DNA of 64,000 nucleotides. Origin: Deltaproteobacteria bacterium (GTDB lineage: Bacteria; Desulfobacterota; Binatia; Binatales; Binataceae). A program made the translations under genes and the position numbers. This document shows positions 38,904 to 40,881 of this stretch, piece after piece (position 1 is the stretch's first letter; the number at the start of each line of letters is the position of its first letter). The stretch spans positions 62,001 to 126,000 of the forward strand of contig JAKBMB010000011.1 in the NCBI GenBank assembly GCA_021831785.1, in the 5' to 3' direction. The notes under the pieces were generated by a model, which did no database searches, was not told the DNA's origin, and saw nothing but the letters and a program-made list of their open reading frames with translations.

Positions 38904-39216
38904 AATATTGCTGATACCCATCTTGAAGCGCGCCGCGCGCCCTGTCAAGCCGAGAGCCGCCGCCGCTTGGACGGTTCTGCAGCGTGAGCTTCACGAGGCG
39001 CCCGTCACGTGCGGCACGAAAATAAGGCGATGGCCGCTCGCGCTGCCGGCGAGGCCGTTTTTCCAGCATAGCCGGCAAGCCGTGCACGGTCGTTGGCGTT
39101 TAGAGAAAGTCGCGTGGAACCGGCCTCATTAAACCCCGGGGAGCTGAATTTCCCGGCGCCTGAGCGTCAATAATTTTGCTAGCGCCGCGACCGTCAAGGA
39201 GCGCTAAAATAGCCGT

Positions 39217-39720
39217 ATGAATCTGGAGGGAAACCTGTTGGTCCGCCGCGTTGTGGCAGCGATAGCAATGAGGATTGTACGGCTAGCGAGAGTGATCGCG
39301 CTTTTGGCGATGGTCGTGCTTGCCGCGCCGAACTTGGCCCCGGCTTTCGATTTCTCCTCGTTGCTGGGCAGCAGCGATACGCCCCGGTTCAAGATAATTC
39401 ACGTCAACGACCTCGCGGGCCTGAGGGCGTCGCATCAGCAGAAAGTCGTCGTTCTCGACGCGAACTATCCGCCAGTTCGCAACGACGAAGGCGTGATACC
39501 CGGCGCGGTGATGCTGAGTTCCGAGAGCAGCTACGACGTGACCAAAGAGCTTCCGCACGACAAGAGCGCAAAGCTCGTCTTTTATTGCCATAATAAGGCT
39601 TGAACGTCCTCGCATACGGCCGCCCGGCGGGCGATCGAAGCAGGATACCAAGACGTGAGCGTGATGCCTGAGGGGATCGACGGTTGGAAGGCAGCCGGTC
39701 AACCTGTGGCCCGACCGTAG
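39217..39720 (+). CDS. Secreted rhodanese-like protein with in-frame UGA (probable selenocysteine at residue 129)
   Basis: The frame from ATG 39217 runs 128 codons, meets TGA at 39601-39603, and continues without frameshift to TAG at 39720 (168 codons). Upstream of the TGA: a signal peptide (cleavage near NLAPA), VVVLDANYPPVRNDEGVIPGAVML, and VFYCHNKA. Downstream: TSSHTAARRAIEAGYQDVSV then MPEGIDGWKAAGQPV. The two halves together make one complete rhodanese domain. In relatives the loop reads YCxxxxC-x2-S-x2-AA, and the second cysteine falls exactly at the TGA (C124-x4-U129). Selenocysteine-containing rhodanese-like proteins are known. A GC-rich stem-loop is possible 7-31 bases after the UGA. 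The alternative is a nonsense mutation in a pseudogene. A TAAAAT lies so close to 39217 that the ATG at 39268 could be the true start. Confidence 0.65.
39610..39634 (+). promoter_or_regulatory. Candidate bacterial SECIS-like stem-loop
   Basis: Downstream of the UGA at 39601-39603, TCGC (39610-39613) can pair with GCGA (39631-39634), and inside it CCGC (39620-39623) with GCGG (39627-39630) around loop CCG, leaving a six-base 5' bulge. An alternative three-pair stem GCC/GGC gives loop GCCC beginning with G. The loop lies 20 bases after the UGA, within the range expected for bacterial SECIS elements. No folding calculation was possible. Confidence 0.3.
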
Positions 39721-39856
39721 CGGTCCAGTTAATGTGGCATCAAGCGCCTGCTCGGGTGTTCTCGCGACTTGCTACGCTTGAGATCACTGGTCCGCGGGGG
39801 GCCGCTGGCCGAGGGGCGATTTGACTCAGAGTGCCCAGGGTGGTTATTGCTTGACG

Positions 39857-39997
39857 GTGAAGCGACCCGAGGAGCGAGTAAGTTGGGCTGCTAGCGAGCA
39901 ACTTGGGGTGGTAAGGTTGGAGTCGCCGGCTCGTATCGACGGCGCGGAAATCGATCGAGCCCGGGCGAAGCGGCGTATAGAGATGCTTGCCGAATGA
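39857..39997 (+). CDS. Possible short ORF overlapping the acyl-CoA dehydrogenase start
   Basis: A 46-codon frame from GTG 39857 ends in TGA at 39995-39997, sharing ATGA with the following gene. The product is charged ([17 protein letters not shown] at the start, [13 protein letters not shown] at the end) and matches nothing I know. The four-base overlap is the pattern of a real upstream gene, but there is no clear ribosome-binding site and the length is small. Confidence 0.2.
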
Positions 39998-40881
39998 CTA
40001 GCCAAGTTAACGTAATCGGCGTGATCGGCGCCGGTCATATGGGCGCTGGAATCGCCGAGGTCGCCGCTCAGGCGGGTCTCGAAGTCCTGCTGACTGACGT
40101 TGACCGCGATGCATGCGCGCGGGGGCTTAATCGAATTGCCTATAACGTGGATCGGGCGGTCTCGCGGGGCCGCCTCGGGTCCGAGGCGCGCGACGACCTG
40201 CTCGGCCGTATCAGGATCACGCTCGAGCCCAAGGACATGGCGCGGACCGCTCTCGTGATCGAAGCTGTGGTCGAGGACGAGAGCGTCAAGGCGCCGATTT
40301 TTCACGAGCTTAACCGGCTTTGCCCGCCGGAGGTGATTTTCGCCTCGAACACCTCGTCGATCTCGATCACGCGGATGGGCGCGCGCAGCGGCCGGGCGCA
40401 GCGCTTTATCGGCATCCATTTTATGAATCCGGCGCCGGTGATGAAGCTGGTCGAGATCGTGCGCGGCCTTGCGACTTCGGACGAAACCTACGCCGCGGCT
40501 CAAGCCCTGGTGCAGCGCCTGGGTAAGGTGGCGATAACGGCGCAGGATTGTCCCGGTTTTATCGTCAATCGCGTCTTGCTTCCGATGATCAACGAGGCCA
40601 TATTCGCGCTCTACGAAGGGATCGGCGGGGTGGTTGACATCGACACCGGGATGAAGCTCGGGACCAATCAGCCGATGGGTCCGCTTGAGTTAGCTGATCT
40701 GATCGGCCTCGACACATGCCTTGCGGTTATGGAGGTGCTCCATAAGGGGCTTGGCGACGACAAGTACCGCCCTTGTCCCCTGCTCAAAAAATATGTGGAT
40801 GCGGGCTATCTGGGGCGCAAGACCAGCCGTGGTTTCTACCGTTACGGCGAGCAGGGCAAGCCGGTTGCCCCTGGCATCTGA
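39994..40881 (+). CDS. 3-hydroxyacyl-CoA (3-hydroxybutyryl-CoA) dehydrogenase
   Basis: 295 residues, the length of single-domain-fused bacterial HBD enzymes. The NAD-binding fold starts [20 protein letters not shown] (about 9-28). [13 protein letters not shown] and [11 protein letters not shown] follow, then [19 protein letters not shown] with the catalytic histidine and glutamate, [18 protein letters not shown], and the C-terminal dimerisation part [22 protein letters not shown]...[14 protein letters not shown]. It oxidises 3-hydroxyacyl-CoA with NAD(P), in fatty-acid beta-oxidation or butyrate-type metabolism. No partner thiolase or hydratase is adjacent. Confidence 0.92.

Follow-up and report, generated by a model that had tools for sequence, protein, structure and literature searches.

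In an ordinary rhodanese, a cysteine in the loop carries the sulfur. Rhodaneses with selenocysteine (Sec, U) are on record as well, as the first-pass annotation of the present locus had stated, and Table 1 of a 2026 review lists 119 families that include five rhodanese forms (PMC13188914). The motifs given in that table are other ones, however (UxxS, UxxG, CxU, and UxxxxU), and none of the five forms is CxxxxU, the motif of the gene described here. This gene is found on the forward strand at positions 39217–39720 of the window, which is the whole stretch of 64,000 nucleotides that was analysed. Forms 1, 2, and 4 of the table resemble the window protein in having a PF00581 domain with one Sec, but their motifs (UxxS, UxxG) start with Sec, whereas the Sec of the window protein follows a conserved cysteine (PMC13188914).

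Among the NCBIfam models, the window protein best matches the rhodanese part of TsoB (NF045694, "form 5"), with 49.4 bits over residues 38–165 on positions 23–157 of a model of 572, well short of the membership cut-off of 805. Both proteins share the spacing between the two reactive residues (UxxxxU in TsoB and CxxxxU in the window protein), but TsoB has Sec at the first position, where the window protein has cysteine, and TsoB resembles a rhodanese/DsbD fusion, whereas the window protein is a single domain without the DsbD part. Rhodanese_LYCAU (NF041203, "form 3") is a small rhodanese-related family in which, as in the window protein, a cysteine comes first and Sec second; its spacing is C-x-U instead of C-x4-U, and the window protein scores 38.1 bits against a cut-off of 115. 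Residues 114–165 of the window protein also match PQQ_CXXCW (TIGR03865) with 42.2 bits, below the cut-off of 128.05, and this family is not named as a selenoprotein in the NCBIfam library. Among solved structures, E. coli YgaP (5hbo) has a fold that matches the predicted fold of the window protein (E 4.4e-5).

Selenocysteine-containing rhodaneses or sulfurtransferases are also listed in four further papers (PMC9312934, PMC2398784, PMC1088965, and PMC5029168), and the motifs, where these listings give them, differ from CxxxxU. Since several of the listed entries come without a motif, an overlap with CxxxxU is possible. A term search for "rhodanese" in the main text of the deep-Sep paper had no hits (PMC12013277), and an open-access search for TsoB together with selenoproteins found only the 2026 review (PMC13188914). 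Open-access searches for rhodanese and selenocysteine in Myxococc-, for rhodanese CxxxxC, and for selenoprotein CxxxxU found no paper, while Binatota and selenocysteine returned only a paper on methane cycling in sponges. For TsoB the review cites Haft and Tolstoy (2025), and CxxxxU rhodaneses could be mentioned there. As far as the 119-family table of the review goes, C-x4-U is a Sec motif that is absent from it (PMC13188914).

The features of the locus, in coordinates of the window, are as follows.

39217–39720, forward strand: coding frame of the Sec-rhodanese; homologues align through the UGA.
39225–39229, forward strand: GGAGG, a possible ribosome-binding site 8 nt upstream of the candidate TTG start at 39238, read directly from the sequence.
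39268–39348, forward strand: putative export signal, the hydrophobic N-terminus (residues about 18–44), from the sequence and an AlphaFold helix at residues 3–36.
39430–39696, forward strand: rhodanese domain (PF00581, residues 72–160), from a profile match and the predicted fold compared with solved rhodaneses.
39586–39588, forward strand: TGC, Cys124, the rhodanese-loop cysteine and first residue of C-x4-U; cysteine in 39 of 39 orthologues.
39601–39603, forward strand: TGA, predicted selenocysteine codon, residue 129; UGA in 28 and cysteine in 11 of 39 orthologues.
39621–39633, forward strand: predicted bacterial SECIS hairpin, with a 5 bp stem (39621–39625/39629–39633) and a GGC loop (39626–39628), 22 nt after the UGA.

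By open reading frame reading, the TGA at 39601–39603 is the only in-frame stop inside the coding frame, which is terminated by TAG at 39718–39720. The read-through protein comprises 167 amino acids and one domain. Its match to PF00581 (45.5 bits against a cut-off of 22.2; E 1.1e-11) includes the UGA at residue 129, which agrees with the original reading that one rhodanese domain is completed across the TGA without a frameshift. The catalytic loop cysteine of rhodaneses is present as Cys124. The AlphaFold model has a mean pLDDT of 90.2, and a Foldseek search with it gave 65 PDB matches at E ≤ 0.001, led by the rhodanese-like 2hhg (E 8.2e-7). In the aligned solved chains 6mxv and 2hhg, the loop has two residues fewer than in the window protein and lacks the partner cysteine. 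Translation could start at ATG 39217, TTG 39238, or ATG 39268. The N-terminus is probably an export signal, judging from the sequence and the predicted helix.

A protein search across 116 genomes, including the window's own, yielded 40 read-through rows. Weaker rhodanese matches were taken in for L056, L057, and 13 regions, and others were left out. L056 (genome G086) had no match at E 1e-6 among the fetched stretches, and L057 (genome G097), a distant paralogue with 30.8% identity, was not counted among the orthologues. The latter has a histidine at the residue-129 column, and its UGA falls on the nucleophile position (FYUACPHHLAS). In the remaining 39 orthologues of the window's class, the column of residue 129 holds UGA in 28, counting the window gene, and cysteine in 11. 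These are the only two states, so the second cysteine of the cysteine homologues does fall on the UGA, as had been predicted. The UGA copies come from 28 genomes and the cysteine copies from 11; in three genomes, G007 (L032), G030 (L030), and G035 (L028), one copy of each kind is found close together in one locus. The first cysteine of the motif is kept throughout the 39 orthologues, and its column is invariant across the 34 rows of alignment A1. The proposed replacement of cysteine by Sec is thus borne out, with the refinement that it concerns the second cysteine of C-x4-C and leaves the rhodanese nucleophile in place. As side observations, the codon before the UGA is CAT, and never CAC, in all 18 class members that have a histidine there, and the base after the UGA is mostly A; both could perhaps belong to the recoding context.

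A nonsense mutation or a sequencing error, leaving a pseudogene or a truncated protein, could in principle account for the in-frame TGA, as a single assembled base can be wrong and a stop at this point would leave an open frame of 128 amino acids. UGA nevertheless stands at the same column in 27 further genomes of the class, one of them of the same genus, and in Myxococcota and other lineages besides. This recurrence speaks against a base error. The sequence after the UGA is intact and conserved, and a synonymous constraint tied to the UGA (described below) also argues against this explanation. The first-pass annotation had called a chance nonsense mutation less likely, and on this evidence we regard it as extremely improbable.

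The genome that contains the window (3.68 Mb, 34 contigs) is 96% complete and belongs to the Binataceae, a family within Candidatus Binatota. A search for selA, selB, the tRNA-Sec gene, and selD, which had been proposed together with the selenoprotein reading, recovered all four. SelA (582.5 bits), SelB (377.8 bits), and SelD (382.7 bits) score over their curated cut-offs, and the SelB and SelD genes adjoin on contig C4. The tRNA-Sec scores 71.4 bits against a cut-off of 47, and ARAGORN calls it tRNA-SeC with the anticodon tca. Two further places in the genome lie just above the cut-off of the tRNA-Sec model (49.2 and 49.1 bits); at E ≤ 0.001 the same model finds matches in 14 of 14 control genomes, five of them over the cut-off. 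The SelD gene (L015:1501-2427) itself has one in-frame TGA, in the context AAGUAGKL, and is likely to encode a selenoprotein. The SelD motif listed in Table 1 of the review is UxxK (PMC13188914).

SelA was found at E ≤ 0.001 in 27 of the 28 genomes with a UGA copy, with scores over its cut-off in these 27, compared with 69 of the 88 others. Because SelA is this common in genomes without a UGA copy, co-occurrence alone is weak evidence. In G073, the one UGA genome in which the SelA search found nothing, a tRNA-Sec match reaches 81.4 bits. Seven of the eight genomes with only a cysteine copy have SelA, and none was found in the eighth, G069.

The conserved tail requires read-through of some kind, and this would also be obtained if the UGA were read as another amino acid, through suppression or an altered code, with no Sec inserted. 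This is very improbable. TGA is found at the end of 21 of the 39 open reading frames of at least 250 amino acids in the window (mechanically called frames, some of them spurious), and UGA thus looks like a normal stop here. Moreover, the column alternates with cysteine, and the full Sec apparatus is accompanied by a hairpin of the SECIS type.

A GC-rich stem-loop had been suggested 7–31 bases downstream of the UGA, and one is present there, with its stem at 39621–39625/39629–39633. In the bacterial SECIS model of the review, the loop has 3–9 nt with a G in its first two positions, the stem has 4–16 bp, the spacing is 16–37 nt, and the minimum free energy is at most −7.5 (PMC13188914). The window hairpin falls within these published ranges, with its GGC loop, 5 bp, 22 nt, and a minimum free energy of −18.3 for 39601–39650. 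Across 44 distinct UGA sequences, a stem of seven pairs has 92.5% of its cells paired, compared with 27–62% in versions slid along the alignment. Failures in these sequences number five for each of the two outer pairs and 11 for the innermost pair; in the window sequence, columns 20 and 34 do not pair, and five consecutive pairs are left. The clearest pair is that of columns 21 and 33, which are both third positions of alanine codons and pair in 44 of 44 UGA sequences (34 C-G, six U-A, two U-G, and two A-U) but in only three of the 11 cysteine sequences.

The codon choice under the hairpin points in the same direction. Across codons +6 to +10, GCC GCC CGG/CGT CGG GCG is the usual series in the UGA members, whereas the cysteine members mostly have GCC GCG CGC CGC. 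GCC at +7 is found in 28/28 UGA members and 2/11 cysteine members (p 2.6e-7), CGG at +9 in 27/28 and 1/11 (p 1.8e-7), and CGC at +8 in 0/28 and 7/11 (p 2e-5), these p-values being guides only because related sequences are not independent. Among the 93 arginine codons elsewhere in the UGA genes, CGC is the most frequent (40), followed by CGG (22), CGA (11), AGG (8), CGT (7), and AGA (5). The predicted hairpin is held by synonymous codon choice, and in UGA members only.

The covariation score of the seven-pair stem is 0.200, against a mean of 0.108 in shuffles and a value as high in none of 500 shuffles. Of five pair measures, two do not stand out: the count of pairs changed on both sides was reached by 314 of the 500 shuffles, and the cells changed on both sides number 13, compared with 15 when the stem is slid by −2. 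The covariation term of RNAalifold is small (−0.29), and the gain in folding energy over mononucleotide shuffles is modest, with a mean z of −1.2 for UGA sequences compared with 0.0 for cysteine sequences. A longer, two-stem SECIS was rejected, as the lower of the two stems is poorly conserved (73% of cells), and an Rfam scan of 39000–40000 gave one weak match that was judged to be chance.

With the orthologue column, the Sec machinery, and the hairpin all in its support, the earlier suggestion of a probable selenoprotein that arose by replacement of cysteine gains in strength. On the comparative evidence, the UGA at 39601–39603 is almost certainly recoded as selenocysteine.

The class extends beyond the close relatives of the window's genome. 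When the genome_contigs collection, which by its own description covers 84,980 species, was scanned with the pattern, 46 loci were obtained. By reading of their translations, 37 are rhodaneses and nine are chance matches (L061, L063, L069, L077, L079, L086, L088, L092, and L096); about seven chance loci are expected by arithmetic. One of the rhodanese loci (L090) is from a Candidatus Binataceae MAG; beyond Binatota-type MAGs, there are ten Myxococcaceae, Archangiaceae, or Myxococcales records and two further Myxococcota MAGs. Three Desulfuromonadales and one planctomycete are also among the pattern loci, both groups on long branches. Given such branches, L067 and the Desulfuromonadales rows L059, L082, and L100 may represent separate rhodanese families. 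L083 comes from a genome labelled as a betaproteobacterium (G123), yet it is placed within the same-family Binatota sequences in the tree. SelA was found in 16 of the 17 pattern-locus genomes outside the set of relatives, the SelA search being negative in G123. A tree of 56 sequences and 109 columns, in which the Sec column was masked and many forks are unresolved, requires three changes between Sec and cysteine, two of them forced by well-supported branches, which argues that the two residues have been exchanged more than once.

Taken as a whole, the locus very probably encodes an exported, single-domain Sec-rhodanese, which would likely work by persulfide/disulfide redox chemistry between Cys124 and Sec129. 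The UGA would be decoded by SelA, SelB, tRNA-Sec, and SelD under the direction of a SECIS hairpin inside the coding sequence. In the exported protein, Cys124 would serve as the usual loop cysteine of rhodaneses and Sec129 as its partner, with four residues between them. Outside the cytoplasm, Cys124 could take up sulfane sulfur or attack a disulfide or persulfide substrate, and Sec129 could then resolve the intermediate through a Cys-S-Se-Sec bond (selenenylsulfide). A periplasmic thiol reductant, perhaps from a DsbD/CcdA-type pathway, would reset the enzyme, and selenium would speed the resolution step. A selenenylsulfide or disulfide step is suggested by the retention of the loop cysteine together with a second residue that is always cysteine or Sec. 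That TsoB, with the same spacing, is named a rhodanese/DsbD fusion would fit an electron supply by a DsbD-like route.

The protein could also be a selenoprotein and still act as a plain thiosulfate or persulfide sulfurtransferase, with the sulfur carried by Cys124 and Sec129 tuning the loop or guarding against over-oxidation. This is conceivable, if somewhat unlikely: the catalytic-loop cysteine is invariant and the fold is that of an ordinary rhodanese, but the partner column holds nothing other than cysteine or Sec in any of the 39 orthologues, and this restriction suggests redox chemistry at that position over a structural role. Thiol/selenol redox chemistry of the Cys124–Sec129 pair, as read from the logic of the motif, is the reading that we moderately favour.

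The neighbours of the window gene, an FTR1-family gene upstream on the opposite strand and a 3-hydroxyacyl-CoA dehydrogenase gene downstream, do not suggest a function for it. In at least 12 of the 37 pattern loci, which are at most 8 kb long, a homologous gene is found downstream on the same strand (L064, L065, L071, L074, L081, L083, L084, L089, L090, L091, L093, and L101). The copy in L101, the one representative that was scanned, encodes an OPT-family transporter (PF03169, E 3.4e-88). An OPT-family transporter, rather than a thioredoxin or DsbD gene, is the commonest neighbour in Binatota-type loci. This arrangement raises the idea that the protein handles selenium or metal(loid)s, binding or carrying Se, As, or Hg outside the cytoplasm, for example in uptake with the transporter. 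By general chemistry, a cysteine and a Sec in close proximity would be good ligands for soft metals. The downstream OPT-type gene was seen only in Binatota-type loci, however, the window has no OPT-family gene next to its Sec-rhodanese, and nothing ties the protein directly to metals; we consider a role of this kind improbable.

The relatives also have another rhodanese family, 29–37% identical over the matched stretch, in which seven of the 13 regions examined carry UGA at the C-x4-U column. In the two members that were scanned, the rhodanese is joined to an ion-channel domain (PF07885, E 1.1e-11 and 2.1e-14). The rhodanese-channel fusion (L119–L134; e.g., L119, L111:400-1299) is found in 16 of the 116 genomes, with exactly one TGA each, and the genome of the window has none at E 1e-30. 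Fourteen of the 16 fusions have YC-x4-U and, further along the same frame, a GYGD pore motif; L132 starts at a contig edge, and L134 is not matched by this pattern. In the DNA after the UGA, GAGCAGGC-GGTC-GCC-like hairpins seem possible by eye in several members. The fusion is possibly a selenocysteine-bearing protein with a K+-channel-like pore. More speculatively, the C-x4-Sec rhodaneses might form an undescribed class of redox modules in Binatota, Myxococcota, and others, with an exported branch and a branch of selenenylsulfide-gated, K+-channel-like proteins that sense persulfide or redox state. UGA-containing rhodaneses of the CxU type also occur in the relatives (L110, L113, L115, L116, and L117), and L115, in which the rhodanese is joined to a VTT (DedA-like) domain, comes near NF041203, with 86.6 bits against the cut-off of 115.

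UGA rhodanese genes with their RNA signal occur in dozens of related and distant bacteria, and an annotation that stops at the UGA would truncate the Sec-rhodanese gene in many Binatota and Myxococcaceae genomes. The channel fusion, if real, would place selenium at the sensor of a redox-sensitive channel, and it would be a selenocysteine-gated ion channel if the gating reading is true. As Sec and cysteine orthologues coexist, even within one genome, the family provides a natural test of what a thiol enzyme gains from selenium.
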